Source: Henricia sp. BOLD:AAB3569
Lineage: Eukaryota > Echinodermata > Asteroidea > Spinulosida > Echinasteridae
Direction of reading: 5' to 3'
DNA length: 64,000 nucleotides
Assembly: GCA_037783545.1 (NCBI GenBank)
Contig: JBBELK010000690.1
Coordinates: 62,001 to 126,000, forward strand
In this document: positions 1,277-53,023 of the stretch, piece after piece
How the letters are laid out: each line of letters opens with the position of its first letter
How positions within the stretch are numbered: the stretch's first letter is position 1
Position numbers and translations under genes: made by a program
The notes under the pieces: generated by a model
The model's database searches: none
Told to the model about the DNA's origin: nothing
The model's input: the letters and a program-made list of their open reading frames with translations, nothing else

Positions 1277-1819
1277 CAGGGGCGGTATTCACAAAACTCA
1301 GTCTAAGCGGGGTAATTAAATCTGTCTTAAGTCTAAGCACCCTGCTAAGATAAGTGGGGCACTCAACTTCGTATTCACAAAAGATTTAAGCGCCCCGCTT
1401 ACCTTAGTGGTGTACTTAATCAATCAGTGCAAGCTTTACTCTGTCACGTCATAAAGTCTCTGCAATCAAAGCAGCGCGGACCACGCGCGGACGTTTCAAA
1501 AACATTCAATTACTACGCGCGTGCATCATACGCGCACATTACGCGCGTGTCGTGCACACATTATGCGCGTGTCGTGCACACATACGCGTGCACGTACCAC
1601 AAGTAGACGACGTACGTTGTGCATGCTATGCGGTAGTCAATTATGGTCAGTGGCGAACAAAGATGGAAAACGAAGGTTTTTTAGTGTCAGTAAGAATAGA
1701 AATTGAAATCTGTTGTAATCTCCCAATGTCTAAATTGTTTAGGTGTTCTCTAATCAATCATATAGCCGTTTTTCGACAAAACACTGGGCAGAAAAACAAT
1801 GCAATTGCAGACGTTAAAT

Positions 1820-2150
1820 GCACTTAAGACAGGTCATACCACACTTAAGTTTAAGTCTCAAAAATAAGCGGGCCACTAAAAGAAAACGCGCTGTGAATAC
1901 CACTTAACTTTATGATTTGACTTAAGTGTAGAATTTAAGCGGGGCGCTTAAATTTCACGACTTAAGTCGTTTTGTGAATACTGGGGCGGTATTTACAAAA
2001 TGACTTAAGTCATGAAATTTAAGCGCCCTGCTTAAATTCTACACTTAAGTCAAATCATAAAGTTAAGTGGTATTAACAGCGCGTTTTATTTTAGTGCCCC
2101 GCTTATTTTTGAGACTTAAACTTAAGTGTGGTATGAGCAGTCTTAAAAAG
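1820..2150. repeat. Head-to-head inverted repeat inside the Harbinger element
   Basis: About 160 bases at 1820-1979 are the near-perfect reverse complement of 1984-2150, with only a few bases between them. Both arms carry the same AAGCGGGGCGCTT-like and CTTAAGT-rich motifs as the outer ends but diverge from them after roughly 15 bases. This looks like the right end of one Harbinger copy abutting the left end of another, so the 4.8 kb unit is probably two copies joined. Confidence 0.7.
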
Positions 2151-2161
2151 TTAAGAGTGTC

Positions 2162-3125
2162 ATGGCGGCGTTGTTATGTGCACATCGTTTCCGAGAAATT
2201 AATGAAAGAGTGCTTCAAAGAGAGAGAATTTTCCGCGAAGGAGTTCAGCCTTTAGAAGATTATACGGATTCTGAACTGTACTCGAGATATAGGTTCGATA
2301 GGGCGGGTATTTTATTTATTACTGACCTGATTAGGGACGAAATCGATTATCGGGGTTATCGACGGAACACACATACGAATCATTGCACCATCAGAGCAGG
2401 AAGAGCAATATGTAAATCATAAAAATTATCACTCAATCAACGTGCAAGTGGTGGCCGACGACAAGTCCCGTTTCACAGCCATCAATACCACATTTCCCGG
2501 CAGTACACACGACTCCCGAGTTTTAGGAGAAAGCTGTGTTGAGGAACAATTTGAAGCCAATCAGTATGCTCCGGAAACTGTCCTCCTCGGGGACACGGGG
2601 TATCCTTCCAAGTCGTGGCTTCTTACGCCTTTCCTACGTCCATCGAATCCTGCTGAGGCCAGGTACAATGCTGCACGCAGGTAGGCTAAGCCCTGTTACA
2701 TGTATAACAATTTTTGTGAAGTTACCATTTTTTTCTTCGACTGACATGATTGAATAAACTTACAGAAGTGGGCGAACAATATCAGTATCCACAAAAGTGA
2801 CAATTTCACGCCGTACGTGTTTCACTGATTGTGATTAAGTTCTTTTCCCGATGCTGCAGATCAACTCGAAGCGTTGTGGAGAGGACAAATTGGCCAGTGG
2901 AAACGGAGATTTCACTGCCTCCACGGCGAGATTCGTCTTTCCCCGGGGAGAGTTTGTCGAGTGATCACTGCATGTGCTGTTCTACACAATATTGCAAAGC
3001 AACGAGGGGTGCCAGAGTATGATGTAGAGCCGGAATTAGATCCACCACCACAGCCTGATCAACCACTACAGCACCAGAATGCAAACCTCACTCGAAACCA
3101 AGTTGTACATAGCTATTTCCAGTAG
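2162..3125 (+). pseudogene. Harbinger (HARBI1-like) DDE transposase, broken
   Basis: The N-terminal part from ATG 2162 has a typical HARBI1 start, with YTDSELYSRYRFDR and a DLIRDEI helix. The reading frame then shifts near 2355 with loss of the segment that normally carries the helix-turn-helix. In the next frame the catalytic core is clear: IDGTHIRI (first D), YVNHKNYHSINVQVVAD, GSTHDSR and GDTGYPSKSWLLTPF (second D). An intron follows at 2681-2859 (GT...AG), then TRSVVERT (catalytic E). One extra base near 2888 shifts the frame before WKRRFHCLH and LHNIA. It ends at TAG 3123-3125. All three acidic catalytic residues are present but the frame is broken at least twice. In living copies it cuts and joins the element's own ends in the nucleus. 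Confidence 0.85.
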
Positions 3126-3521
3126 GTTTGTCGTTATTTTACTAGTTGTGACCATGACTTCCTAAGTGACTGCACTGCATGATTTTGCATACTGAACTAT
3201 TATGTACACACATAGCTTTGTGCTTCACTTTATACTACAACTGAATACACAACGCGTTCTGTTGTCTTTAGACGCGCTCACTGAAATTGTTACATTTAAT
3301 TGTATTGATTTTGACCCTATTCAGCCCCATTCGTCAAGTTAAAGGCACTATTACAAATAAAAACATAACGAGGCTCAATTAAAAATTGGCACACAATAAA
3401 AAATAAAAAAAACATGACGCAGGTTTGTGCTGTTCTTTGTGTTTAATTTTTGGAAGACTTTAAAACAACCTTTAGCACAACTTAAATTCAGTACAACTTT
3501 CAACAATATAGCATTTTAATA

Positions 3522-11338: not shown

Positions 11339-11411
11339 TGGCTCCACCGGGATTCGAACCGCGGGCCTTCTGCTTAACGTGCAGACGCCCCACCAATTTA
11401 GCTATGAAGCG
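11339..11411 (-). repeat. tRNA-Asn(GUU)-like sequence, degenerate
   Basis: Read on the - strand it has a box A (TAGCTAAATTGG), a perfect anticodon stem TCTGC/GCAGA around a loop with GTT, and a box B (GGTTCGAATCC). The acceptor arm pairs 6 of 7. Only 3 of 5 pairs form in the T stem and position 33 is C instead of U, so it is more likely a tRNA-derived repeat or pseudogene than a working tRNA-Asn gene. Confidence 0.55.
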
Positions 11412-14767: not shown

Positions 14768-14839
14768 AGCTCGGTGGTCGAGTGGTTAAGACATCTGCCT
14801 TGTTTGCAGGAGGTTGTGGGTTCAAATCCCACCTGAGCA
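14768..14839 (+). tRNA. tRNA-Thr(UGU)-like unit in a repeat (copy 1)
   Basis: A 72-base cloverleaf can be drawn. The acceptor pairs 6 of 7 (AGCTCGG with CTGAGCA). The D arm has box A TGGTCGAGTGG, the anticodon stem TCTGC/GCAGG encloses loop CTTGTTT (anticodon TGT), and the T arm GTGGG/CCCAC is perfect with loop TTCAAAT. A second copy with the same flanks is at 21425-21496 on the - strand, so this is a repeat family with a tRNA head. Whether either copy is transcribed as a tRNA cannot be told. Confidence 0.6.
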
Positions 14840-15419
14840 CGCTATCAAGTTTTTCATAGTGTCTCGGAAAAGCACTGAGTATACTAATATATGTCGGTTA
14901 AGGGCAAAACAAACGCTAATTAACATTTATTCTCCCGACGCAAGCTAAATCAATTACTGAAGAAAAATCAGCAGAAGTTGGTAACATTTGAATCAAGTTT
15001 GAATTTAAGATTCAAAAATATGAAAAAATAGGCCTGTCCAGTGTGGGAATTTCACTGAGGCCACGGAGGCCATTGCCTCCGTTGCCCCTGGTCTTGCCTT
15101 GGTGCCCTTTTGCAATACTCTCACAGACTTTTTGATTTTCCAATGGAAGTGCCCTTTCTAAACACAAGAATGGCAGTGCCCCTTCGGTAATGAAATTCCT
15201 ACCCTGCCTGTCCCATGTTTTTTTTTGTTTTAATTAATAAAAACAAATGTTTAGGCCTACAATGTTCTTTTAGCATAAATTTTTCTTTTTATAGGCTTAC
15301 TGCAAATGCTGGAGCCTAAGTTTTTCAACATTTCAGCTACTGTACATGTACCAAGGACAAAAAAAAAGTCACATTCATGATTTTATTCACAGAAGAACTT
15401 CTATTTTAGAAGAACTGAT

Positions 15420-21416: not shown

Positions 21417-21424
21417 TAATAGCA

Positions 21425-21496
21425 TGCTCGGGTGGGACTCGAACCCACGACCTCCTGCAAACAAGGCAGACGTCTTAACCACTCGACCACCAAGCT
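21425..21496 (-). tRNA. tRNA-Thr(UGU)-like unit in a repeat (copy 2)
   Basis: Same cloverleaf as 14768-14839: AGCTTGG with CCGAGCA acceptor, anticodon loop CTTGTTT, perfect GTGGG/CCCAC T stem. The block with ATTTATTCTCCCGATGCAAG lies upstream of the tRNA unit here (about 21555-21600) but downstream of it in copy 1 (about 14925-14965), as expected if the parent was a tandem array. Confidence 0.6.
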
Positions 21497-26312: not shown

Positions 26313-27113
26313 CATCGGATCGAAGTGGCGTGGGGGCGAGGGGTGAAGGGGCGAAGTGGCGATGGGGCGAAGTGGCGGTGGGGCGAAGTGGCGGTGGGGC
26401 GAAGTGGTGGTGGGGCGAAGTGGTGGTGGGGCGAGGGACGATAGGGTGATGGCGTGAAGGGGTGATGAGGTGAAGGGGCAATGGGGCAATGGGGTGAAGG
26501 GGCGATGGGGTGAAGGGGCGGTGAAGGGGCGATGGGGTGAAGGGGCGAAGGGGTGAAAGGGCGATGGGGTGAAGGGGCAATGGGGCGATGGGGTGAAGGG
26601 GCGATGGGGTGAAGGGGCGAAGTGGAGGTGGGGCAAAGTGGAGGTGGGGCAAAGTGGAGGTGGGGCAAAGTGGAGATGGGGTGGAGGTGGAGATGGGGCG
26701 AAGTGGCGATGAAGCGAAATGGTGGTGGGTCGAATTGGTGGTGGGTCGAATTGGCGATGGGGCGAAGCAGTGTGGCGAAGTGGCAGTGGGGTGAAGTGGT
26801 GATGGGGCGAAGTGGTTATGGGACAAAATGGCGATGAGGCAAAGTGGCGGCGGGGCGAAGTGGTGGTGGGGCGAGGGGTCAAGGGGCGATGGGGTGAAGG
26901 GGCGATGGGGTGAAGGGGCGAAGTGGAGGTGGGGCAAAGTGGAGGTGGGGCAAAGTGGAGGTGCAACGAGGGCAATGGGGTGAAGGGGTGAAGGGGCGAG
27001 CGATGATGGGGTGAAGGGGCGAAGTGGCGGTGGGGCAAAGTGGAGGTGGGGCGAAGTGGCGGTGCAAGAAGGGGGGGTGGCAAGAAGGGGCGAAAGGGCA
27101 AAGAGGCGAAGTT
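26313..27113. repeat. G-rich minisatellite, about 800 bp
   Basis: Two related units alternate in blocks: GGGGCGAAGTGGCGGT-like (about 16-17 bases) and GGGGTGAAGGGGCGAT-like. The order is first type, second type, first type, second type, first type, with hybrid units between. Both strands are open over long distances because the unit lacks stop codons; the implied Pro/Ser/His/Ala-rich proteins are artefacts. Confidence 0.9.
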
Positions 27114-27329
27114 GTATGATATTTAATTTATTCCAATGTGTGGACTGGTGAAGGGGTGAAATGACATGGGGCAAAGTGGAAATAGGACAAAGTGACCGAC
27201 TAGTACAACAACCACCACCACCACCACCAAAAACAAAACTAGGCCTAACAAAAAATAAAAAATAAAATCAGTATAAAACAAATGTAAAATAAAATATAGG
27301 AATCATAATGACAGTAAAATATTTCCTAC
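27114..27329. other. Spacer with CCA microsatellite
   Basis: Minisatellite-like degenerate units to about 27195, then (CCA)n at about 27213-27228, then A-rich sequence leading to the splice donor of the - strand exon. Confidence 0.5.
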
Positions 27330-27665
27330 CAGTTGCAGCATCTTCATAATTCCAGGTAAGGTAGTCAAGTAATGCGGTTCCCATCGCAGACAGAATCTTT
27401 CCCTGTAATCGAGCTGGCTACTGCCGGCCGCATCGTGACGATACGGCGGCTGAGCCGACCGGGCCGCAGCCGAGCTGAACCGTACGCCCGGTTGGTCAGC
27501 GCTATCCTCCACTGGAGAATGTTCGGCTTCCGGCAAATCGTCCCGTTCTTCTTCATCTACACCAGTAATTCCAGGATCATTTTGTGCCTCGGTCCTCCTT
27601 CGTCTGTCCAGGGAGTCGGGAAGGGGTTCATCTGGGGGTATCTCCTCGGTAACGGACCGATACAT
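27330..27665 (-). CDS. Probable first coding exon, MARVEL/CKLF-like membrane protein
   Basis: The frame is open from a stop near 27772, but the first in-frame ATG is at 27665, giving MYRSVTEEIPPDEPLPDS. About 85 residues of acidic, Pro/Ser/Ala-rich sequence follow, then LDYRERFCLRW and YLTTLPGIMKMLQL. The exon closes at a CTG/GTAGGA donor (27330/27329). A short aromatic and arginine patch followed by (F/Y)L-x-(S/T)-LPGI-x-K running into a hydrophobic helix is how the first membrane segment of MARVEL-domain proteins (CMTM, plasmolipin, MAL) often starts, and an exon end inside that helix fits. I found no further exons on the - strand in the window, so the gene is incomplete here or has large introns through the repeats to the left. 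It lies head to head with the homeobox gene. The family assignment is an inference from about 25 residues; it could be another membrane protein. Confidence 0.45.
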
Positions 27666-27704
27666 TGCCTGGCAATCTGCACAAGTTTCCCGCGCTGAGC
27701 TCAC

Positions 27705-30326
27705 GTGTTTAACTGGGCAAATTACGTATCCCCCGGTGTGGCAAAGACAGCCGATTTTGGCGGGAGATCAGTTTAAAACTCCAGCAAAAATATAAGAAAG
27801 TTATTTATGCCGAATTTCAATCTTTTAATTCAACAATTTACATAATCAAAAACGCAAGTAGTTATGTTTAGCACGTTTACGTAAACAAAAGACGTTCTTT
27901 TTTGTTTGACAAACAGAAAAATTCCAAACGAGCTCCGTCATATTTTCGTTATTTTCATGCCTGAATTCCTTGAAAATTGTCTGATTCCTTTGGTGTTAAA
28001 CAAATTATTGGTCTGTTGACAATTTTCTAGATAGTCTGATGATAGTAGAACCTCTTGATATTGTTTATTATTTAAAAAAAAAAACGATTCCAAACGAAGA
28101 TGAAGCAAAAAATAAATTGTCATGTCCTGGTTCAATATCCTCATCAAGGCTCAAGATTGTATCCTCGAAATTTTCTTGAGGGCGGGCTTGAAAACATTGT
28201 CATTATTTGCTCCATACAAGAAACACGAAGAACACAGAAAGCATGGCAGGAGCCCAAGACCACAGCGAGCATAGCGTCTGTGTTGTGCCGCAAGGGCGTT
28301 GCAAAAAACCCGTCTCCGTCAGGCTACCGACTCAGCATTTTCTCACCGGGCGTGGCACCTCCAACCTCTAACAGGAACAAAGAATATTTTCAAAGTAAAG
28401 CTAGTCCCTCTGAAGATCTTTTGAATCGCTAAAAATCCCGAAAAATACAGCAAAACCAAAACGAGTTCCCGCGCAGCCTTCTTAATCCACCTGCAAATGA
28501 ATGTCGGCACGAACGGTTCACCCTCGACCTAGCTGGCCTGTACACCGTCTTACAGGCATTCCATATGCACAATATAATATACAATTAAGATAATTAACAA
28601 CAGCAAACCATTTCAAGAAAGGTATACTTTTTCAATTACAAATAATACACTTTATTTTAAAAATATTTTGAATTGACAAATTTACTTTTCTTTAGAAAGC
28701 TTTTGTGCTTTTAAAACTGCAAAAATACAAACGTTTTGAACGAGACTGCAAAGTTTACGTTAGTTTGTTTATAATTCTCTACTCTAGTAATACAAACTAG
28801 ACAAAGTAACAATTTTCGCGCTTTGCAGAGGGGTTTTCGCTATGACATTTGAGACAAAGGGTTGAAAATGGAGGCTCTTCGTCAATTAGTCAATGCTCAT
28901 TGATAAAGTATGTAAAATCCACGGAGAAAATGTTTAAATAATGTCTAAACAGTGCTTGAACAAGGCCCGAGCCAGTTGTTCCCCTGGCGGCGTCAGTAAC
29001 GGCGGATTCCCAAGTGATAGCTGCCCTCACTGACGCCAAAATTAACGCGGTCAGCGAGGAGGCAACGGAACGACGGTCATTTTTTGCAAAAAAACAATGT
29101 TTTAGGCAAATGTTATCTTTAAATCATTATTTATTCCACAGAAGTATGTCTTTATGACAGACTTTTGCATCAACTTACTTCATTTGGTAGCACAAACCCA
29201 TTCCACAGAGGACTCGTCGCGTGCCGACACTGGCTCGCTGTCGGCCGTAAAACAGGGCGAATAGAGCTGGTAGATATATTCTGGAAGAATACTCCTCATA
29301 ATTAAGAGCAAAACTACGTTTACATTGTGATTATCACGTGACTGCACTTGAGATATGTTGGTAGCACAGCAATGTCGATTGTGCCGGCATCAGGTGCATC
29401 CATGGGTTCCGGCACCGCTCTCGCTCCGAGATCAAAATGACGGTTATAAGCAAGCTAGAGAGTATTATTCGTCAAATTGGGCACCGAATTAAGCATTCCA
29501 AATTATTTGATTTAATATTTAAAATCGTCCATAAATTTGCAATAAAAACATCCGATTCTTGTGGCAAATGACACAGGCATGTCTGGGTGTGTCGACGCGA
29601 GCAGCGACCGAGGCGCGTCGGTGCGATTTCTGCGCTAAGAGCGCTTGTGATTCTTGGAGAATCTTAAGCCACAATGCCTGCAGTGAAAAATAAACGGAGT
29701 AAAAGTTTGAAAATCGCGCTTCCAGGGCGGAATTGGTCTCTGCGAATGGCAGATGTCCACCGGCGTTGTCGGTGATGAAGGGACCGTCTCAAGTCCCCGC
29801 CTCTTTTCTCGGATGTCGCCAGTCGATATCGGCGATACGTGGGTGAAGGTTCCATCAGGAGTTCACGTGGCACTTTCCATAGAGTCAGTTGAGGTTTATG
29901 ACTGAACAATTGTTCGCACGGACTGGAGTTACAAAATAAACTTCTGCAAACTTCGTTCCTTATGTGACGCCGTTTCAAATTTTTGAATCGTGAGAATTCT
30001 GCGTGGAAAGTGGGCAGGACGTTACGCTATTGTCCTGGAATTTCGGCACAACGACGAGCCAATTTTTTACAGACGATTTTGCACTTGGTTTGTATACATG
30101 TGCAGAAAAATGCGTTTTTTAGAGGGAAAACATCTGATTTAAATTGTCATTAAATTTTATGCAATCCCCTAGTAATGATTGATTGGAGGGTTCTAGCAAC
30201 TGGTTGTGTTTACGCGTATCCAACCAAGCCAAAGTAGGGCTCAAAAGCAAGTTTGCTGCGGTACAGTGCAGACGGGGGAAGTCTTAGCGTCTCGGGACAG
30301 GTGGGTCTTCAACAAGTGATATCAAC
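27705..30326. promoter_or_regulatory. Shared upstream region of two divergent genes
   Basis: This 2.6 kb lies between the two putative start codons and probably holds both promoters and 5' untranslated sequence. No transposon ends, SINE heads or TACATG clusters were recognised, unlike nearly everywhere else in the window. Locally GC-rich and CpG-containing at about 28220-28380, 28970-29070, 29370-29460 and 29580-29880. No TATA box, start site or factor site can be assigned with confidence. Confidence 0.4.
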
Positions 30327-30741
30327 ATGCAACAATGGCCAGCCGCCAGACCCCGATGCGTTGGGGTAACAGATGCATCTGTAGAGCCCGCTCTACTCCT
30401 GAATTACGACGAATACAACACTTTTGGCCCGCCGGTATTGGAGGACGCTTCCCCGGTAACGGGCTCGTGCATGTTCACCACCACTATTAGCCATCCCGTT
30501 GTGCCTTCAAGTCAGCGCGATAATTATTACGACACCCTTGCCGCTCCTCAAGCATCTTACGTTAGCTCTCCCTCGTCGATTCACATGAAATGCTCGGCAA
30601 ACACCGCCACTGTTTCCAGCCCTTTCCCCGACATCCTCTTGACTGAAGACCAGCAAGACGCCGAAGTCCTACAATCTCCTGAGGCAGCACCATTCCGCAC
30701 TTCCCCGTTGATGGAAGAGGGCTCCCATGCTGAACACTCAG
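30327..30741 (+). CDS. Posterior-Hox-like homeobox gene, exon 1
   Basis: First coding exon (138 codons plus one base) of a predicted 233-residue homeodomain transcription factor acting in the nucleus. The start is the first ATG of the frame, with A at -3, and the exon ends at TCA-G/GTAAGA, phase 1, which joins exactly to the phase of exon 2. The encoded stretch begins MQQWPAARPRCV and is low in complexity, rich in Ser, Pro, Ala and Thr, with tyrosines around residues 27-72 and an acidic LLTEDQQDAEVL segment. Such a disordered N-terminus is usual for Hox proteins. No YPWM-type hexapeptide and no Trp just before the homeodomain is seen, as in many Hox11-13 proteins. The open frame continuing to 30980 is read-through of the intron. 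Confidence 0.7.
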
Positions 30742-32879
30742 GTAAGAAACACCAATGTCGATTTTTTCATAACATCGTCATCTGTGCCTTGATCCCGTTG
30801 GAGCATCTTTTAGGGAATTTTAGCCAAGGAGGATTATCGCGTAACAGCTGCTCGGCAATTTCTCTCCGAGCTGTTTTGCAGAACCTGATTTTGGGGGCTT
30901 TTCAGCATGGCACCAGTTACATTGTGAAATTTGATGAATTATCCAGAATAGGTATAGTAAAAGTTGAAAAGGTATCTTGAAATGACTGCTGTGTGTGCTT
31001 TCATGTTTAGTTTTTACTATTTGCCTGGGGTTTAATGTTACTGAAATTTTGAAACTGTACAAGCTGTAAGATACAAAATGTAAAATGTGTATTTTGCAAA
31101 GATTGTAGTTTAACTATAAAATCGGCAACGGGCGCAGAGGAGCAATCGTCCTATTGATGTTAATTACCCAGTAGCATGAATAGATAATTAATACCCTACC
31201 CTGCGTCCTGTCCCGTGCGTTAACATTTCGCTCATTTCGAGTTTCTAGAATTGCCCTAAGAATTTTGAATCACCGAGTGACGAAAATGAGGACAATCGGG
31301 TCGGTGTTGCCCAATATCGTCCGGAACGTATTTTTCGTTTCATTCTCGCTCTTTTTCTCCCCATCCATGCATCATTGCGGGGTCGAGTAGCGTCCCATTG
31401 ACCCAGCCAAGATGCCCGACAGCTGTACGCGCATGCTCACCCATAGGACCTCTTTTTCTTCTGGACACAAGTCGGCGTCTTTGTGAACAACCGATTGTCA
31501 GTAATTGGTTGTGTAGGGCATAGGCACTGCCGTTCAGTCGAAGGTAGACAGGCGAGTGTGCCGTCAGCAATTTTATCGTGTGCGAAGGCGTTTCATTTTC
31601 GGCGGCAAGTCGGCAATTTTCTAAGGCGCGACTTGGCCACGTGCTGGCTCGTGCCATCAACAAGCGTGTCTAAGTGGGCCCGTGTTATACAATACGGACA
31701 AATAAAAGCAATTGACGTGTTTATTGGGAGAGTACAAAAGTCAACGTATTCGAATAAATCAGCTGAAAGTATTCCATACTGCAGACCTTCCAATTGCAGA
31801 TGCTTGAACAAAGTTTAGTTTGGCTATCAAATGTTTTGCATTTTGACTTATCACAGTATACATACAGACGGAAAAATGTACTTCCCTTTATTTTATTAAA
31901 AATGGAAACAGTATATAAACTTGCGCACCACACGAACATGCACGTATTGGTTTGACACATCTTTTGGATGAGGTTTTAATATTGTCTTGGCAGGACAATT
32001 TTTCTTTTTATTAAAAAAATAATAATAGAAATAAATTAAACAACAGGTAAATGCAGTTAACTTACACTCTTCAATAATTTGAAACCATAATTTTTACTTC
32101 ATGAATTATTCCGGGAAATGTAAAAGCCCACTGAATATAATGCTCACGCCGGCACGAGTGGCCGAGATTCGACCCTCGCCGGCACGCGAACACTTCAAAA
32201 CGCGCCCCCTCCAGCAGAGAGATAATCCATGGGTGACGACTGTACCCACCTAAGTCTATCCTAAATCTAATGGACTGCAAGATATAAGGGGGGTAAACAC
32301 CACGGGCCATGCTGTTGTCTCTGCTCAATCACCAGTTGGCTTAAGTTGCCGTATCACTGGGTAAAAATTAGGCCAGAACGCCTGAGATGCAACAAGTGAC
32401 CACTTGCCCGTCTGTGAGTGTAAGCGAGAGGGTTTTGTTCCTTGAACGTACTGTTTTTGTTCTTTTTGGGGGGGGGGGGGGGATTAGGATGCCGTTAAAA
32501 TCCGCCTGACACCTTGGGTGGCCTGGGAAGTTATTTGATTCATGTTCCTTTGAGGTCCCATCATTGTCGTTTGTATTGCCGCAGGCATTTGCAGCGAGTA
32601 GTCGAGTTATCCCCGTGTCATCGCGTGCGCGGATTTTTGCACGAACGATGTTTTTGAAGGATTATGATCAAGATTATGAGTTTAAGACCAGTCAAACACG
32701 GTGAACGTACATGTGATGTGAATGCTGTATTGTAGGAAAGACATCACAACTTTCCCCTTATATGTTATGGTTTTTGATGTTGTTACTGTTTTACTTTTTG
32801 AAATCATTATTGTGTTCTTATTTGCGTTAGTCTTATCGATAATGCTACCGCGGGGTGACACCAAGTTGTTTTATTAGTT

Positions 32880-33110
32880 GTTGATGGTGTTGTCTCAGAA
32901 TAGCGACTCAGAGTTGTAACCAGTCATTGACTCTAGTCGACTCTTGTAATCATGAGGCAGGTGACTTGTTTTGAGTCGATTTATTATTAGGTTCGGAGGT
33001 TGGAGTCAAGTCTTTTGATGCAAGACTTTAGTCAAGTAAAATGATTTGCTGTACTGACTATTGGCAAGTCGTCAAAAATTGTGACCCGAGTCAGACCCGA
33101 GTTTCGAATC
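32880..33110. repeat. Remnant of the GAGTC repeat family
   Basis: GCGACTCAGAGTTGTAACCA, TCTAGTCGACTCTTG and, at the other side, AATTGTGACCCGAGTCAGAC resemble the arms of the element at 9613-10016. Strongly diverged. Confidence 0.4.
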
Positions 33111-34411
33111 ATTACAATCATGGATGGCGTTGGTCACGGTGCCAGACTGTGCTGATGTGGCTTAAGAATTATCAAAGTAAAAATCCCCAAATATTGATAC
33201 AATCTACGACAGTTATAAAAACGCAAAATGTGCCTTTCTTTAAAATATAATAAAAGGAAAATCAAACTTGAATGAAGTATTTTCGATTCAATTTTCATTT
33301 AAATTTATTTCAATTTATAATATATTTGTGTGTTGTTGAGGAAAAAACGCTCATATTTCATTCACGGGCAGTGTGGTTTAATATCTTAATATGGCCAGTG
33401 GGTATGCGCGTGGCAAACACGGAACAGTAAATAGCCACTACACCCATACGCGTGTCTGGACAGCAAAGTGGTTTTTAAAAATGCCCATATTTGGTCATGG
33501 AGTGTGCCTAGGCTTTGCGCCACGACACGGAGTTGCAAAGTGGCAGTTCGTAATAACACGGTGTCATAGTGCGGCATTCATTAAGTACACGTACAGACAT
33601 TGCATTGTACACTGGGCACGTCGCGAGCCATGCAAAATATGTCGGATATGACATTAATAAATCATGCCCCTTTGATAACCTGCCAAAGATCCACGGTGCA
33701 CGCTTTTCCCACAAATCAGAGACACTCAACAAAATGTGTTTAAAAGTTAGCGACATTTGGGATGGGGAATGGTGAGTTAGCTGTTGCAGTGCAATGGACT
33801 ACTTCGTCGATCAAGTTAAAAACATTTTCGTTATCGATTTGCGTTAGTTGTTTTCTGTAACAAAAGTGTTCACACAAGGTATCAACGTAATCATGTGTGA
33901 ACATGTTTGTGCATTGGTGGGCTCAATTTGAACGCAGTGTATATTGGGCACAATTGTTAGAACATTGGATAATTATCCCGTGTATACACTATGTTTTAAT
34001 CAGTATAACGAACGATCCACGATCAAAATTTCCTTTTAACAGTATGTGGGGTTGGGATCCCTCCCAGGCACACGCACCATTGACCGATGGGTCACCATTT
34101 TTACAGGTTTGTATATAAAGAAACCCACACTGTATGATATTGGCAGTGTGCTGCCATCACTAAAAAGCCGTCTGTGGTGGGGATTGGGCAGGATAGGACA
34201 GGGGTGGGGCTGCGAGGGGTCGATCGTCTGCATACCAAAGGCAAACGTTATTCGGTGTTCTAATGGCATTATTTCGCAAAACCGACATTTATTTATAAAA
34301 ATGCTTCCATGCGCATTGTACGTTAACTTTGTAGATTTTTTTAAAATTTACATGTGGGTCACGATTAAGTGGAGTTGCGCAACGTGTGTGGGTAACAGCA
34401 ACAAGGGCGTC

Positions 34412-35085
34412 TTAAAGGGACACACCGGCTTTGTTGGGCTGGAAATAGACCCATACATTATTCTGAACCGCTTTCCAGAGTAAATTAAATATATCCTGAA
34501 AAGACGCCGTCAAATTTGGCCGTTTTTTAGCATTTTTCAAAAATTGAAGGTCACGTGACTTTTTGGAACGAGATTCTGGTTCCGAAAAGTCACGTGGTCT
34601 TGTGAGTTAGTTGTATTTCCAGCCATAGAAACCAGCGCAAAGTGCGAGTTGCTTTTGTCATTCGTGGTTGGTTTCTCTTCTTGTTGGAAAATAATGTCCT
34701 ACGTGAACACCATGTACATACCGTATTTTCCAATTTGTACACTATTGAGGGCGCTAAAGACACCAAAATGTTGCGTTCGACTTGCTTCTTCGAGTCAGCG
34801 CTGACCTGAGGGATCATGCAAGGTGTGGCGAGTCAAGAAAACGAGGTTAATCACGTGTCGACCCATATCGAACGCCACCTTTATTTACAAACACATGATA
34901 CATAATACATCGCGACGGCTGGTAAAGCGTATAGCCCAACATTTGTCTCTTTTGTTAATTTTAAACATTTCTAGTTAATTACGTGACATTTTGATAATTT
35001 ATTTTCACAACGACCATCGAAAAATTATTGTCAAGGATGCTAGATCGCTACATTATGTAAACGGTAAGCCGGTGTGTCCCTTTAA
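34412..35085 (-). mobile_element. TTAAAGGGACACAC element, copy 3
   Basis: Ends TTAAAGGGACACACCGGCTT and its close complement, reverse oriented like 22590-23431 but with a shorter, diverged middle. The CACGTGAC palindrome is at about 34551-34596. In intron 1 of the homeobox gene. Confidence 0.8.
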
Positions 35086-35483
35086 GTTGAACAACAAGGT
35101 CGTCTTCGGAAACTTAATACATGTATCTCGTCTTTTTTTTTATTGATCGACGAAAACGCTAAAGCAAATCTGCGTAAAATTCACGAGTAATTATACAAAA
35201 CAGCCATACACCTGGTAATTGACAAATTTCAAATTGACACTGGCATGTTTTATTATATTACGTCAAGCGTCTTTTCATTTGCAAATGTTATCACAAAAGA
35301 AAGCACTGAGACCCTCGTCTGACAGTTTGAAATTCCTCATTGAGCACATAAATTGCAGCTATAGACCTTATTCCTGTGGACCACTGACGTATATACATGT
35401 ACAGTTGACTGATAAGCAACTCCCTTATTGAAGCAACCTTCCGTTATCTTATTAAAGTAAAGGCAATGCCCTTTCTGGAGTAT

Positions 35484-35746
35484 ATGTAAAGTGGAATACA
35501 GGCAATCTCGTGGATCGGGAACCAGTCTAGGCAAAGCGTTGTTTTTCTTGGAGTAAGATGGCCGACGTGTTGATTCAATTCTCGCATGTCCAGTTCATCG
35601 ATATATATACACTGGATGAAGTATGCAATAGCAGTTGGCTATACGAGAATTGAAGCCATACGCCGGCCGCCATTGTACTACACGAACAATGGTTGGCCTA
35701 GACTGCTCCCCGGTCCATGCGATCGCTTGCATTCCACTTAACACAT
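35484..35746. mobile_element. Fold-back element with CCAGTCTAGGC arms
   Basis: The left arm AAGTGGAATACAGGCAATCT, then ACCAGTCTAGGCAAAGCGTT, mirrors the right arm (complement AAGTGGAATGCAAGCGATCG, then GCAGTCTAGGCCAACCATTG). The arms continue inward to GGCGGCCG. A partial third arm (ACCAGTCTAGGCAAGGCATT, TACAATGGCGG) lies at 35779-35870. Confidence 0.7.
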
Positions 35747-35778
35747 GTAGACCACGATGTAGACTAGTGGAGACAGTA

Positions 35779-35870
35779 TGACCAGTCTAGGCAAGGCATT
35801 GTATTTGGTGGGGTACAATGGCGGACGGTGGCTTCAATTTTATACGTCGTTGCTTCATTCATATCGATGG
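35779..35870. repeat. Single arm of the CCAGTCTAGGC element
   Basis: Matches one arm of 35484-35746, with GGTACAATGGCGGACGGTGG and TTCAATTTTATACG. The partner arm is missing. Confidence 0.55.
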
Positions 35871-35984
35871 TCCAGTTGCTGTGTGTCGTCCATTTTATAT
35901 GTCGCTGACGCGGGCACAAGTTTAAGTTGTGTCCCCTGAATTAGTTTTATAAAATGCAGCTGTTGATGGAAAAGGCACCAGACT

Positions 35985-36980
35985 ACCATGCGTTCCAAAC
36001 TCACGAGTCTTTTATTTGCTCATGTGTAATTTCAAGCCACAGCTTATGAATTCGAACACGGCCTTCGTCCGAGTGTGCAATGAGGCTTGTAACGCACACG
36101 TAGTCTGGTACCTTCTCAACAAGCAGTTTGCAATTTATAAAATCGATACAGGGAACATGGATAAGGTGTGAGGAAATGTCTTTATTTGGCCGCCCCTTGC
36201 GCGTCATCCACATACGCGAACGTTTGCAAACGTTAGTAACAATTTAGAGTGAAAACGAATTGTGCGCCACCAACGTTCGCCAACGTTGGCCAACAAACTG
36301 TTGGTTCCCGTCCACATATTCCACACAGGAGAATATAAGGACAGGTAAAGGGCGCTTCATCTTGATCTGTAATTGGTCGTCTTTGCGCGTGCGCATTGTG
36401 TTTTTTATATTTAAAAATTGTCTAAGCCCTTTGCTTTAGGCAATGTACTTTATTTACATAATTGGATATGTTCGACACGCACGGCCAAGTTACAAATGTC
36501 AATGCAAAATCTGCGCACTTACTAAAAAAATAAAAATAATAATAACCACGTGACGGGCAGAATTCTGCCCATCATGGCTGCCCTTTACCGATCCCTATAT
36601 TTTCGCAATAAGCGAACCAATCTATAGGGATCGGGAACCAATCTAACTGTTGGATTGTTCGCGATGTTCGCGAGTCATTTCAAAATGGCGTGCGCGACAT
36701 GAAAGATGACAGACGATGGTTTGCAGTTTGGAAAATAACAAATAAATTGCACCTTTCGTGGTTTTCTCCCTTATCATTGGCGATACACAATCAATGGCAA
36801 TGTGTCAGATTTCCTCAAAAATTTGGTAAGCAGCGGAGAGCCACATTACAACGTCGGTACGACTGCTGTGGCTGTGGGCGCCGCCATCTTGACAATGTAT
36901 TTTGGCAAACAATCCATTCCACATTGAGCAAACGTTGGCGCCAACGTTAACAAACCGTTCGCGTGTTTGGAACGCAGCCC
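35985..36980. mobile_element. GCGTTCCAAAC element, twice interrupted
   Basis: The left terminus ATGCGTTCCAAAC at about 35988-36000 is split from its continuation ACGCGAACGTTTGCAAACG (from about 36214) by about 210 bases of other DNA. The right end, GTTCGCGTGTTTGGAACGCA, lies at about 36958-36977. The Mutator-like MITE at 36301-36645 sits inside. Related to 17261-17388. Confidence 0.55.
36301..36645 (+). mobile_element. TGGTTCCCG Mutator-like MITE, copy 1
   Basis: It runs from TTGGTTCCCGTCCACATATT to CGGGAACCAATCTA and carries the family interior (GATTGGTCGTCTTTGCGCGT-like, GGGCAGAATTCTGCCC). ACTGTTGG stands on both sides, but the first few bases of the left terminus appear lost. Other copies are 37347-37695 (reverse) and 59478-59811. 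Confidence 0.8.
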
Positions 36981-37331
36981 CGTTCTCACGACCCAATTCA
37001 CCTTAGGCATTGTGTTGGAAAAAAGAGAAATAGAATGCCACATGCTAACTTTGAGACAATGGGGAAAACCCCCTGTATTTTTCGAAGATAACAGAGATCC
37101 GCCGTAGTTTTTTTTCCTTCTTCTTAGGCCTACTTTATTTTCACACGATGTAAATGAAAAAAATGTACACGCATATAGAAAATACACATACATTGACATA
37201 ACAAGAGAAAAAAATAATGTTTTGTGGACGGAGTTTTAATATTGTGGCTACATCGGTTTATATTTGTGATTTTCGAGAGAGATATGAAGGGATTGCAGAA
37301 TTGCAACGATACATTATTGTAATGTTGTGTA

Positions 37332-37843
37332 AAGCCTGGTTTCCATTATATTGGTTCCCGATCCCTATAGATTGGTTCGTTTATTGCGAAAATATAGGGA
37401 TCGGTAAAGGGCAGCCATGACGGGCAGAATTCTGCCCGTCACGTGGTTATTATTATTTATTATTTTTTAGTAAGTGCGCAGATTTTGCATTGACATTTGT
37501 AACTTGGCCGTGCGTGTCGAACATATCCAATTATGTAAATAAAGTACATTGCCTAAAGCAAAGGGCTTGGCCAATTTTTAAATATAAAAAACACAATGCG
37601 CACGCGCAAAGACGACCAATTACAGATCAAGATGAAGCGCCCTTTACCTGTCCTTATATTCTCCTGTGTGGAATATGTGGACGGGAACCAGTCTAGGTTT
37701 CCATATCATCGCAAACAGTAACGCAGACAGTCGGCAAAGTTGAACCAAGTTTAACTTTTCCGATTGTTTCCGTCAGTGTTTGCGTTGCAGTTGTTTGCGT
37801 CTAGTCTGCGTGAGCGCGTTCCGATTATATGGAAACTAGGCTT
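37332..37843. mobile_element. AAGCCTGGTTTCCAT element hosting a MITE
   Basis: Left end AAGCCTGGTTTCCAT and right end ATGGAAACTAGGCTT. The MITE 37347-37695 has jumped into the left terminus and duplicated GGTTTCCAT. The interior has several TTTGCGT(C/T) and GCAAACAG motifs. Confidence 0.65.
37347..37695 (-). mobile_element. TGGTTCCCG Mutator-like MITE, copy 2
   Basis: 349 bases with ends TATATTGGTTCCCG and, complemented, TAGACTGGTTCCCG. It is flanked by a perfect 9-bp direct repeat GGTTTCCAT at 37338-37346 and 37696-37704. A 9-bp duplication points to the Mutator (MULE) superfamily. Reverse orientation relative to 36301-36645. Confidence 0.85.
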
Positions 37844-38418
37844 AAATCTTATTTTTGGCAAATATTGTGGAGATCCGATTTCATACAAAAGGTTCATTGT
37901 GCTGTAGATTAGGAGATAGGAAAGACTGCATGATATCTTTTGAGTGCGTCCGAATTACTTGGAAGGAAAGAATTGTTTAAACCAAAAGATATAGCCAGCT
38001 GTCACTGAATCGTGAGAACATACAAGCCATTGAAGCCGTAGCCGAGTGCCATTTTGCCGCGGCCTATAAGGCTGGGTTCAAAGTACGGCCTGCTGATGAG
38101 ATTTTACATGTCAAATTACTTTTTTAGTGAATTACTGGCCTTTGTGCTGAGTTTTAAAATGTCTCCTGTGTTTCTGTGTGTGTTTCATATGAAGGTCACA
38201 TTCGGTGTTATTTATTCTATTCCCCACCCCATCTTTTCCTCACAGAAGTGAGATTCCGTTAAGTGCCGAAAGAAAAAGTTTAGTGCCTCACCAAAAACAA
38301 AAGTTACAGTATTAACTTTTACTTTACTTATATCAACTCAAAATGACGAAGGAGATGTAGTTTTATAAGTGCGAGGAAAAAACCCTGGGGAAATCTCCTG
38401 GGGAAACTCACGGAGTCA

Positions 38419-38575
38419 ATGAACCTGAAACATAATGACGTCACGGTTTGTTTACATACGTGCAAATTTACGGGTACCTGACGATAGGTCGCAGGGTACC
38501 AGACGACATAGCGCCACAGGAAAGCACGTATGTACACAAACCGTGACGTCATTACTCATTATAATTCAGGTCATT
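38419..38575. mobile_element. TGACGTCACGG short inverted-repeat element
   Basis: AATGAACCTGAAACATAATG then ACGTCACGG on the left; the right arm complement is AATGACCTGAATTATAATGA then GTAATGACGTCACGG. The middle contains GGTACCAGACGACATA, shared with the partial copy at 63623-63722. The end sequence resembles the 986-bp element at 10184-11169. Confidence 0.75.
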
Positions 38576-39847
38576 CAGTTGGGACTGCAGAACCAATTTA
38601 CATACCGCACGCCCAGGATTCGAACTCGGAACGCCGAAGGTGAAAGGCTCATTTTGGGCCTCGTGACTACACGACGTCGTACTTTATAACGACACGACTC
38701 GTCATTGTCAACTCAATGTAAATTTAACAATCGCTCAAACATAAAATGTCAATGTTGTCCGTACATTTATTGAGTCGTGATTGTCATGGCAATGGTCATT
38801 GTATGTTAATCATCGCCGTCATTTCTGATCGTCCTCTTTTCATCTTTCACCACGTTACCGTTCACGTGAGTCCTTTGAAAAGTCTGCTCTCTGTGCATTG
38901 AGGGAAAAGTGGATGAAGTAACATGAATCAGGAAGAGTCATATCGCATGGACTAGACGTGACGACGTAGATTGTATACGTGAATGTATGTACCTCGTAGA
39001 CGTGAGTTGAGTGTGTATTGGCATGGCAATATGGAGTGTGGCTGGCTCGCTTTATGGGCATAACGGCAGGCCGGCCACATGCCGGTCGCGTGCCACTCGT
39101 TTCAAAGTCCTCCTTGGATCCAGGAGCCACGTGGCCCACTGGAATCCCCTGGGTCCACAGAACCGTCACTGGTAGCACCAAGCCAAAACCACTTTCGGTT
39201 TGCTTTTCATTTTTTCGACCTCGGGGGTTTCGTCGCCGAATAAGTCCCTGGCCAAACGCAACCCCTGGCGATGACCGACCACGAAAGAACGCTACTCGTC
39301 AGGACACGGACCGGACAAGCCGTGCTGACACTTGCTTCTAGCCCCGCGGCGTGGTGAACAACCTCCCCGCTCACCCACCACTCGTGGCACTGATGAGGGA
39401 GATAGTAATACCCACTAATGCACCGTGGATGTACGCAACTGTTAGGACGAGCGGGGAAAAGGAAACAAATCCCCTGTAAACCAAACCGGAATTGCAGGTG
39501 GGCGCATTTGGGGCAGGGCTTGACTGACAACCCCGCTGGCGTATACCAGAACCAGAGAGGGTACCTAAGCGCACTTATGGGTCGGGTGACCGGCATGAAG
39601 CCGGCACGTGCGTCGGTGGTCTTTTGACGTCAATCTTCGCATTGCTTTTCAACCGGATTGTGCATGACACGAGACGGCAAAAAGACGGTTTGTAAATGGA
39701 TGGACTACAGGACATTCCATACGACCCGCGGCCGACTGGTCCACTCCCGGTCTATGTACTTTAGCCACCCGCATTCGTTTTGATTCATGAGTTCATACGA
39801 TGACATTCGAGTGCATATTTTTATTATTATTATTATTATTATTATTG

Positions 39848-40154
39848 TAATGCCGCAATAGGGCGACAATTCGGGAAGCCTTTCCCCGGGGACTACCGAC
39901 ATTTCGGCAAGAACCACTCAAAATGACACATTATTTTTTTACCCGAAGCTTCCAAAAATGGTTACAGACCTAAGAAAATTGGTTCTAGACCTAATAAAAA
40001 TGGTTTTCGATTTAAAAAAAAATTGTTTTTGACCTAAAAAAAATGATTTTTAATCTCAAAAATATTAGGGCGACACCAAAATGTCGCCCTAATAGAGCGT
40101 GTCGCCCTAATATAGCTTTTTTACACACAAATTGTCGCCCTATCCTAGCATCCA
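39848..40154 (-). mobile_element. AGGGCGACA inverted-repeat element, copy 2
   Basis: Reverse-oriented, collinear with 4657-4955: TGCCGCAATAGGGCGACAAT at its left and CGCCCTATCCTAGCATCCA at its right. Flanked by (TTA)n on one side and a SINE on the other. Confidence 0.8.
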
Positions 40155-40160
40155 TATTTT

Positions 40161-40507
40161 TTTATTATTTCTTTCTGGTATTCATACCAAGGATTCCGCA
40201 ATAGTGCTCATTGCACTGTCACTCGCAAGCATGAGGAAACCCATGAAGAATTCGAATTAGAAATGACCAGAGACACCGGGGAATATATCCCCTTGCTCTT
40301 TACGAAAGAATGCTCTGGGATCTTTAGAGTGCGTTACCATTACCTAACACACTGGACCAACTTTTCATCCCTTCCGAAGGATGGAGCAGTGTGGTTGAGT
40401 GCCTTGCCCAAGGGCACAGGTACCGCAGCCGGATTCGAACCCGCAACCCCACGTTTTCACCCATGATTACGAGTCAATGACCCAAACCACTGGGCCACGG
40501 TACCCCA
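40161..40507 (-). mobile_element. SINE family A, copy 3
   Basis: Full-length on the - strand: tail TTTCTTTCTGGTATTCATAC at the left, tRNA-like head ending GGCCACGGTACCCC at the right. A few deletions relative to 16857-17208. It ends about 0.5 kb before exon 2 of the homeobox gene. Confidence 0.88.
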
Positions 40508-41011
40508 CAGCCTCCTTTTAGATGCTGTGCCAGTGTATTATGTCAAGCGTCTTTTATTATGCCAAAGCGGAAATAATTCCACACTGATAATTCTACCATC
40601 AACCCTGAAAAACAAGTGTCAACATTTTTAAAAACTTGCCAACAAAAGCACGGTATGCCGGATTTTAAACAGTCTATATCAACATTTAAAAGTCATGCCA
40701 ACCTTTTTTTTCTTGCGTAACATTTGCAAAATATGCGTTAACTTTGTAAAATTATTATTTTCGCTTTGGCGTGCCATAGTATGGACACAGTAATGGCAGA
40801 TAGCAACCGGTTGTCAAGAAAGTGAAACCCAAGAATAAGGCCGTGTCCAAATTAAATGGCTAAGTCTTAAAATTACAAACGGGTTTATGGAAAGCCAACA
40901 TATCGGACGCGGCCTCCTCGCTGGGTATCAAGTTGCCATGTTGGAATTTTTCAACCAGTTAAAAGAACATATTAAAACCCACGATGTCGCTTTCTCTTTT
41001 TGTTTGTCCAG

Positions 41012-41169
41012 TGTCTGCCTCCTTGAAGGCCGGCAGTTCACGGCCCAAACGTCGCCCCTACTCCAAACTGCAGTTGATTCATCTGGAACAGGAGTTTCAG
41101 CGGAGTATGTACCCGTGCCGCGAGCGACGCGTCTGGCTCTCGCAGGTTCTCAATCTCACCGAACGTCAG
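41012..41169 (+). CDS. Posterior-Hox-like homeobox gene, exon 2 (homeodomain 1-44)
   Basis: Entered through a polypyrimidine tract and AG at 41010-41011; phase 1 completes a Val codon with the last base of exon 1. It encodes residues 139-191: a short VSASLKAGS linker, then the homeodomain from about residue 148. The N-terminal arm and helix 1 read RPKRRPYSKLQLIHLEQEF. P7, Y8, L16 and F20 are where the family has them, and KR-x-PY-(S/T)-K is the mark of the posterior (Abd-B, Hox9-15) class. Helix 2 is unusual (P26, C27, W33). The exon ends LNLTERQ/GTAAGT, that is between homeodomain positions 44 and 45, phase 0. Emx, Vax and Not genes also have introns here, so class rests on the arm residues and LTERQ. 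Confidence 0.85.
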
Positions 41170-41454
41170 GTAAGTACAGCTAGAGGCAGTGCACCACACA
41201 AAACAAAAACAATTTCCCCTCAAAGCATTCTGTGGCTGAAAATGTATCCCCACTATAAAGGGCCAATTAGAACATTTTAACTTAGAGCATTTCAAGCCTT
41301 AATTTTAATCAAAAATTTCAGAGTGCCAAGCCAACAGATCGCGCCGGCCTTGTAGGAACATTTATTTCTTTAAATACCACTATATTATGGATTATGAGCT
41401 CCCCTCCTCCCTATATATAGATTATTTAAAAATTAACGAGCTCGGCGCAAGATC

Positions 41455-42058
41455 TGCCAACTATGAAGTGCCATGGCCAAGTGGTGTATATTGTACCGAA
41501 TGCAACACTTTAGTTAATTCACAGGTTGTGGGGTGAAATCTCACCCCAGCCCGCCATTAGTTGTGCATGTGCTCTTAGACAAGGCAATTTGCCATAAATT
41601 GACTCTCTCGACCCAGAAGTAGTGGGTACCTGCGAGGGCAGTGAACAGGGTTGTAGTCGAGTCCATCACAAGTCTATCACAAGTCCAGAGCCGATAAAAT
41701 CCGTGACAAGCCCCGCACAAGTCCGTCACAAGTTCAGTAACAAGAAGCAAAAGAAGAACACGCACAAAAGAATGCCTTTGTTGGAGATCATTTGAACAGC
41801 TTGTGACTTGGAGTAAGACCCAGGGACTTGTGGAGGCTTGTGAGGACTTGTGATGGACTTGTGATGGACTTGTGATGGACTTGTGATGGACTCGACTACA
41901 ACCCTGGTGGTAAAAGGCGATGTGTGTGCGTAAGCTGCACAGTATGGTACTGCATGCTCCCCAGGGAGTTGAGGATTAAGTAATGTTATTGAGCCCAATG
42001 ACCAGGGGTAATAATGCAAAGCGCATTAAGACTGCTTGTCAAATGCACTATATAAGAA
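41455..42058 (+). mobile_element. SINE family D, copy 2, split by a hAT MITE
   Basis: The head is a worn tRNA-like sequence (CATGGCCAAGTGG as box A) followed by GTGCTCTTAGACAAGGCAAT and TCTCGACCCAGAAGTAGTGGG. After the insertion 41646-41906 it resumes with CTCCCCAGGGAGTTGAGGAT and GAGCCCAATGACCAGGGGTA, ending AATGCACTATATAAG. Lies in intron 2 of the homeobox gene (41170-42249). Confidence 0.75.
41646..41906. mobile_element. hAT-type MITE CAGGGTTGTAGTCGAGTC
   Basis: Ends CAGGGTTGTAGTCGAGTCCA and an exact complement at the right. The right arm includes four or five direct repeats of ACTTGTGATGG. The 8-base flanks GCAGTGAA and GTGGTAAA match at 5 positions, compatible with an old hAT duplication. 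Inserted in a SINE, in intron 2. Confidence 0.8.
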
Positions 42059-42249
42059 TGGAACAGAATAAATAGTCGCATAAAACTGATTTCGCGTGTG
42101 GCCTTTGCAAACAAATTACCCAGTGAAATTTGTGCCATCCGAGCGATGGGGAAAATAACGATTCTGATTGTACTGTGTTACCCTTTTGCTTTTTCTTTTC
42201 CAATGCCGTATATTAAAGCCCACCGATGTTTTGTTTTGTTCTCATCCAG

Positions 42250-42378
42250 GTGAAAATTTGGTTCCAGAACCGCCGAACGAAGCTGAAACGCACGATGGAT
42301 CGGGAAGAGCGTGAGAACGCGCAGATGCAACGCGACATGGCCACCCTCGCCATGAAGTTTTACGACCCCGCCCCCTAG
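42250..42378 (+). CDS. Posterior-Hox-like homeobox gene, exon 3 (helix 3 and tail)
   Basis: After the AG at 42248-42249 it encodes residues 192-233. The recognition helix is VKIWFQNRRTKLKR, with W48, F49, Q50, N51 and R53 intact, so a DNA-binding protein is expected. Position 54 is Thr where posterior Hox proteins usually have Met. The homeodomain ends near M207. A 26-residue tail, rich in Arg, Glu and Met and ending FYDPAP, runs to TAG 42376-42378. It joins in phase 0 with exon 2. AATAAA follows within 35 bases of the stop. The long open frame on the opposite strand is its shadow. Confidence 0.85.
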   Translation: MKIWFQNRRTKLKRTMDREERENAQMQRDMATLAMKFYDPAP

Positions 42379-42411: not shown

Positions 42412-42451
42412 AATAAATTTGGTCGCGACACATGTAATAAAATTGAATAAA
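42412..42451 (+). terminator. Poly(A) signals of the homeobox gene
   Basis: Three AATAAA hexamers at 42412-42417, 42436-42441 and 42446-42451, starting 34 bases after the stop codon. They imply a very short 3' untranslated region, with cleavage probably near 42465. Confidence 0.65.
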
Positions 42452-51954: not shown

Positions 51955-53023
51955 GAAACGAATTGCCGCCACTTAAATAATTTTTTGGGGGGCTACTTAT
52001 CGTGTACGTACACGATAATTATCGTGTACGTACAAGATAACTATCGTGTACGTACGTTTGTACATAACTAAAACCTACTTAAAGTGAGCCGTCGATTCGG
52101 CCAAAATAGCGGCCCGCTGATTCAGCCGCCGATTTAGCTGCACATTCGAAAATGATGAAAATCCAGAATACATACACTAGAGGATGTTTACCATGCACGG
52201 GGCTTGCATAATGTACGTCGCATCGGCGTAGCAAGCTTTTAAAAAGTGGAGGAGTGGGGGGTGGGAAGGGGTCCCTTAACTCCTCATTTGGGTACCCAAT
52301 ATTTTGCGACTGAAGCTAAAACAAAGTGTTTCCGCGACTAAAATCAATTAGAAAATGCATTAAAAGTTGTTAATTTGTACAAAATGAATGCATCAAATTC
52401 TTTTAATGATGTGCGTTCGAATATTTTGGTGAAAAGTCTTTACATTTTAACTCTTTGGGAGAGGTCCCTTTAACACCTTAATTAGGTACTAATTAGTGAG
52501 CGGCTGAAGCTAAACTAAAATTAGGTGTGTCCTGGATCAGAATCAATTATAATTTTTAAGTTGAAGAGGAGTAGGTCCGAACATGTAGTAAAATGATGAA
52601 ATTGTTCCGTTCCGCGACGTGGTAAACGTCCCGTGTGGTAAACATCTTCTGGTGTATGTATTGTGAATTTTTCACTATTTTCGAATGTGGAGCTGAATCG
52701 GTGGTGAAATCAGCGGGCCGCTAATTTGGCCGAATCAGCGGCTCACTTCAAGTAGGTTTTAGTTATCTTGTACGTACATGATAGTTATCTTGTACGTACG
52801 TACACGATAACTGTCGTGTACGTACACGATAACTGTCGTGTACGTACACGATAACTGTCGTGTACGTACACGATAACTGTCGTGTACGTACCGATAACTG
52901 TCGTGTACGTACACGATAACTATCGTGTACGTACAAGATATTATCGTGTACGTACATAATATTATCGTGTACGTACACGATAATTACCCCAAAAAAATGT
53001 ATTCAAGTGGCGGCAATACGTTT
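51955..53023. mobile_element. Long inverted-repeat element with palindromic arrays
   Basis: The outer arms GAAACGAATTGCCGCCACTT and, complemented, GGAAACGTATTGCCGCCACTT lead into TACGTACACGATAA arrays, then AAAACCTACTT and GAGCCG...TCGGCC blocks mirrored on both sides, and GATGTTTACC near the centre. The arms total about 250 bases, not counting array length differences. Non-coding. Confidence 0.8.
52780..52984. repeat. 22-base palindromic tandem array
   Basis: About nine units of ATAACTGTCGTGTACGTACA-type, each centred on the self-complementary GTGTACGTACAC. The mirrored arm at 52003-52062 has only about three units. The Val/Thr/Arg-rich open frame across it is an artefact. Confidence 0.88.

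Follow-up and report, generated by a model that had tools for sequence, protein, structure and literature searches.

Two posterior Hox genes of echinoderms, Hox11/13d and Hox11/13e, have been found in all echinoderm classes on scaffolds that carry no other Hox genes (Szabo and Ferrier 2018, PMC6307216). The passages of that paper that deal with Hox11/13e credit it with a very distinctive homeodomain and with a long, charged C-peptide that Hox11/13d has in similar form, and state that a hexapeptide is entirely absent; its neighbours there are histamine N-methyltransferase, astacin and copine-8, which can be several hundred kb away, and its transcripts amount to a handful of reads in one sea star testis transcriptome. 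We describe here a 64,000-base stretch of DNA (the window; positions 62001-126000, forward strand, of the 267,560-base contig C690) that very probably carries an echinoderm, and probably a sea star, Hox11/13e: an intact posterior Hox gene, present as a single copy in the assembly and lying off the Hox cluster. A preliminary description of this DNA left the gene unnamed, and the evidence given below points to echinoderm Hox11/13e. As Hox11/13e the gene itself is already described and little studied; the part worth following is an intron that is common to the window gene and to the probable Hox11/13d of the same genome.

According to Pascual-Anaya et al. (2013, PMC3707753), a second intron is present in vertebrate Hox14, in lamprey Hox13beta, in both Hox11 and Hox14 of amphioxus and in Abd-B of Diptera, and its position is the same in all of them; the passages concerned infer that the ambulacrarian posterior genes lost their second intron in a common ancestor. 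They agree with the preliminary description, which had named Abd-B and certain other posterior genes as having an interrupted homeobox. The window gene resembles these genes in that its second intron splits the homeobox, in its case between homeodomain residues 44 and 45 (44/45 below); the difference is that the described cases come from lineages other than its own. The paper, published in 2013, predates the description of Hox11/13d and Hox11/13e.

Structure of the window gene

The gene lies on the + strand in three predicted exons whose joined coding sequence of 702 bases is open throughout and encodes 233 residues, with GT-AG sites at both introns; this bears out the three-segment model (phase 1, then phase 0) of the preliminary description. 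The coding part of exon 1 (30327..30741) begins with ATG and runs as an open frame of 138 codons plus 1 nucleotide (nt) to the donor CAG|GTAAGA. Intron 1 (30742..41011; 10,270 nt, phase 1) ends at the acceptor TTTGTTTGTCCAG|TG, and exon 2 (41012..41169; start TTTGTCCAG|TG, end CGTCAG|GTAAGT) encodes a linker and homeodomain residues 1-44, Q44 being the last. Intron 2 (41170..42249; 1,080 nt, phase 0) falls exactly at the Q44|V45 junction of the homeodomain, where it had been placed in the preliminary description. Exon 3 (42250..42378; start CTCATCCAG|GTGAAA) supplies homeodomain residues 45-60, a charged C-peptide of 26 residues and the stop codon TAG.

The homeodomain occupies residues 148-207 of the 233-residue product and matches the Pfam Homeodomain model at all 57 of its positions (E 1.8e-18); this match is not due to chance. 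Under a codon usage model trained on 1,629 codons taken from the genome's other homeobox exons (those of the posterior paralogues included), the claimed frame is the top one of six in each of the three exons; this test is weak, in that among the 95 open frames of at least 90 codons in the window exon 1 ranks 5th and exon 2 ranks 12th. The gene model is at its least secure in exon 1, which contains no conserved domain.

Placement and identity

The assembly that was searched (740,731,340 bases in 2,104 contigs) contains five posterior Hox genes on three contigs: the window gene on C690, one on contig C24 (called C24 here) and three on contig C65 (C65a, C65b and C65c). Our main tree has 37 rows and 60 columns, and is made up of the window gene, 21 further homeodomains of this assembly and a reference set of 15 homeodomains; the labels given to genes of this assembly, such as Gsx and Emx, are our own assignments by motif. 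In this tree the window gene falls inside a 12-row posterior Hox group with support of 98/96, and it groups with C24, C65a and C65b with support of 97/94. When only the 22 own-genome rows are used the five posterior genes again stand together (100/99), so that the posterior Hox placement proposed in the preliminary description holds in both trees. Among chains of solved structure, Hox-C9, Hox-A9 and Abd-B score best by sequence after one engrailed-derived chain, which ranks at the top and matches through two homeodomain stretches.

Within the posterior class, the window gene has the traits published for Hox11/13e (PMC6307216). Its homeodomain is divergent, differing at six positions (H15, P26, C27, E29, T54 and R58) where its four in-genome paralogues agree. 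No YPWM-like hexapeptide match was found before the homeodomain, and the sole W upstream of the homeodomain is residue 4. Its 26-residue C-peptide has 10 charged residues and aligns with that of C24 at a score of 49, which was reached by 0 of 2,000 shuffles; its scores against C65a, C65b and C65c were reached by 762 to 1,348 of 2,000 shuffles. No other homeobox was present on C690 among the matches considered (150 of 212 candidates scored and, in a second search, all 54 candidates), and the second search, made with the protein of the window gene, gave 31 matches in the assembly, with one copy of the window gene among them. The preliminary description had proposed a look for Hox neighbours past both window ends; none turned up on C690, and this agrees with the scaffolds published for Hox11/13e. 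A difference from the published account is that the 44/45 split is not put in words in its main text. The assignment was made by the published description of traits, and on that footing we regard it as highly probable.

Membership in Hox11/13e requires that the DNA come from an echinoderm, and this can be judged from the mitochondrial sequences of the same assembly. In COX1 (the stretch on contig C2104), AAA stands at 8 of 8 Asn sites when compared with the best-scoring solved chain, 5j4z, which we take to be the ovine COX1 chain. AAA is read as Asn in the echinoderm mitochondrial code (table 9), and amphioxus is not known to read it so; the COX1 gene therefore indicates an echinoderm. Flatworms use table 9 as well, but a posterior Hox set of deuterostome type makes them improbable. 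ARAGORN made 16 tRNA calls, of which one (Ile, overlapping Gly and Tyr) was dropped, and the order near cox1 is L G Y D M V C W A L N Q P, cox1, R, K. By eye, nad1 is on the minus strand of this stretch, and nad4L, cox2 and atp8 can be recognised. The order around cox1 looks like that of sea stars, which makes this class likely. COX1 itself is found in four places, three tandem copies on contig C955 and one on C2104; the period on C955 is 16,221 bases, corresponding to three head-to-tail mitochondrial copies that are likely an assembly artefact.

We call C24 probably Hox11/13d, a second off-cluster gene, from its sequence features: its intron 1 is in phase 1 and its intron 2 in phase 0 at 44/45, its C-peptide is related to that of the window gene and, like the window gene, it lies off contig C65. 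It differs in its homeodomain, which is 39/60 identical to that of the window gene and keeps the six paralogue-shared residues that are changed there. Contig C65 would carry Hox11/13 c, b and a; here, as for C24, the letters are inferred. The C65 genes are oriented + - +, with the first two facing each other, and feather star Hox11/13b and c have been described as facing each other (PMC7351957). An identity of the window gene as one of amphioxus Hox9-15 was rejected on the COX1 reading of AAA as Asn, on the spread of the five posterior genes over three contigs and on the + - + orientation of the C65 genes, unlike the single cluster in a single orientation that is described for amphioxus Hox genes (PMC3534614). 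No central Hox gene (Hox2-8) was present among the homeodomains read from 80 fetched regions, no dedicated search for them having been completed; their lack may reflect assembly loss or the limits of the search. Hox1 is on a 48.8-kb contig, and contig C453 carries an apparently intact ParaHox cluster of Gsx, Xlox and Cdx, the last of which is oppositely oriented.

Several findings weigh against an assignment to Hox11/13e. None of 11 copine matches and none of 23 astacin matches is on C690, which decides little because the contig has only 267,560 bases. The window gene and C24 as sisters (Hox11/13d plus Hox11/13e) are neither shown nor rejected by the tree, the constrained topology being as good as the free one (p 0.543), and a grouping of the window gene with HOXA13/B13 is not rejected either (p 0.154), so the branching order inside the posterior group, as judged from these sequences, is unresolved. 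There is some room, which we consider small, for the window gene to have arisen from Hox11/13b or Hox11/13d by a lineage-specific duplication followed by divergence, in which case it would not be the Hox11/13e orthologue: it is as similar to C65b (39/60) as it is to C24, and the trees do not order the branches within the group. Against this, published Hox11/13e is defined by the traits that the window gene shows (divergent homeodomain, charged C-peptide, no hexapeptide, position off the cluster), and no other locus that fits those traits was found among the 31 genome matches. That the locus is a posterior Hox gene decaying into a pseudogene is much less probable still; for published Hox11/13e a single testis transcriptome yielded no more than a few reads (PMC6307216), but in the window gene three exons are open, four splice sites are good, the homeodomain core is intact and no lesion was found, and we reject the idea. 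Membership in the Emx/Vax/Not group of non-Hox ANTP genes, whose own-genome Emx, Vax and Not-like homeoboxes also break at CAG|GT after codon 44, is the least credible of all: a constraint of the window gene with Emx, Vax and Not is rejected in the 37-row tree (p-AU, the p-value of the approximately unbiased test, 0.0144), its identities over the 60 homeodomain residues are 27 with EMX2 and 28 with VAX1 as compared with 39 with C24 and C65b, and over residues 1-44 it has 15-16/44 with own-genome Emx, Vax and Not-like.

The 44/45 homeobox intron

We surveyed codon 44 in 34 ANTP-type homeoboxes of this genome, hand-chosen from the fetched loci with PRD, POU, TALE and other rows excluded. The frame stops before WFQ in 12 of the 34, and 11 of these 12 have CAG|GT right after codon 44 (Cdx, Meox, Mnx, Emx, Vax, a Not-like gene, Dlx, C665c, a Hhex-like gene, C24 and the window gene), C665d being the sole one that does not. 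CAG|GT by itself is no proof of an intron, as it is found in several uninterrupted genes too, and the 3' half of the homeobox was seen only for Cdx, Mnx, C24 and the window gene. Dlx has been described with a homeobox split of the 44/45 type (PMC3199776), and the Capitella gene pb, which is not a posterior one, is reported to have an intron inside its homeobox (PMC2603591), so introns of this kind also occur outside the posterior Hox class. The homeobox is uninterrupted in the three posterior genes of C65 and in Hox1. Both introns of C24 have the same phases as those of the window gene (1, then 0); upstream of the homeobox, all three C65 genes have candidate phase 1 acceptors, and C65a has phase 2 candidates as well. 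The 44/45 split is common in the ANTP class, yet it separates the off-cluster genes d and e, which have it, from a, b and c, which do not.

The position of the homeobox intron shared by Abd-B, Hox14 and the other split posterior genes is, we assume, 44/45. The passages of Pascual-Anaya et al. that treat it give no number. On this assumption, a 44/45 intron in Hox11/13d and Hox11/13e conflicts with the published loss of the second intron in the ambulacrarian ancestor. Because the position is shared with Abd-B and with chordate posterior genes, we lean, at somewhat better than even chances, towards an old Abd-B-type intron that was retained, rather than one newly gained in the d/e ancestor. The alternative is that the intron was gained once, in that ancestor, at a favoured CAG|G site. 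Two points weigh against retention: 44/45 is, by the survey above, a common intron site in ANTP genes, and the Hox-related cluster of Nematostella is reported to lack interrupted homeodomains (PMC1779807). The fuller scenario, in which d and e keep the ancestral Abd-B/Hox14-type intron, no loss took place in the ambulacrarian ancestor, and a, b and c lost the intron later, seems to us evenly balanced between true and false; if it is true, the off-cluster d/e pair is the branch that preserves the ancestral structure of a posterior gene.

No statement of a 44/45 intron in Hox11/13d or Hox11/13e was found in the passages covered of the open-access literature. The main text of Szabo and Ferrier has no word starting with "intron" but uses "homeodomain exon(s)" (PMC6307216), and given this wording its authors may have noticed the split. 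With a homeodomain so short and so quick to evolve, the kinship between echinoderm, amphioxus and vertebrate posterior Hox genes has stayed unsettled, and a shared intron is a character independent of homeodomain sequence. If d and e both carry the Abd-B-position intron in echinoderms at large, the loss that has been published for the ancestor of ambulacrarians needs redrawing, and Hox11/13d/e would then be the genes to compare with chordate Hox11-14.

Predicted function and other features

The predicted spliced mRNA would encode a sequence-specific DNA-binding transcription factor, in which helix 3 of the homeodomain is presumably rebuilt across the exon 2/3 junction. The homeodomain core residues W48, F49, Q50, N51 and R53 are kept. 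The replacement of M54 by T54 and of L26-T27 by P26-C27 suggests an altered DNA preference and, because six paralogue-shared positions are changed, the DNA preference or the partners of the protein have probably shifted. With no YPWM-type hexapeptide, canonical binding of PBC cofactors would be unlikely. The off-cluster position may mean that the gene is regulated by its own elements, and our best guess, since the published Hox11/13e reads are few and from sea star testis (PMC6307216), would be a late, restricted or germ-line use.

Past the stop codon, at 34-73 nt from it, are three AATAAA sequences on the + strand (42412, 42436 and 42446; span 42412..42451); they are weak candidates for poly(A) signals, the window being rich in AATAAA, with 138 against 90 expected. 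Intron 2 contains an element resembling a miniature inverted-repeat transposable element (41646..41906, no strand assigned) with 42-nt terminal inverted repeats that are 98% alike, and a 20-mer from its repeat is present again in two other fetched loci (L033 and L036). The best coding score of the 95 window frames belongs to a minus-strand open frame at 27306-27767, which contains LTTLPGIMKMLQLVG, by eye like the start of a MARVEL domain; Pfam gave no match over the cut-off for this frame. A G-rich minisatellite at 26321-27061 lies beneath long minus-strand open frames that are probably spurious.

Near the left end of the window, a DDE transposase of the PIF/Harbinger type (Pfam DDE_Tnp_4) is present in two pieces at 2331-3122, and the open frame just ahead of them (2147-2419) has no Pfam match. 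Upstream of the window, open stretches at 295-3165 of the preceding fetched piece (L110, C690:52001-62000) resemble, on inspection by eye, the polyprotein of a gypsy-like retrotransposon. Two genes for tRNA-Thr(TGT) and one further tRNA match (14768-14840, 21424-21496 and 11339-11411) are possibly tRNA-derived repeats, and in 52764-52983 a 22-base, almost perfectly palindromic unit is repeated about ten times in tandem.

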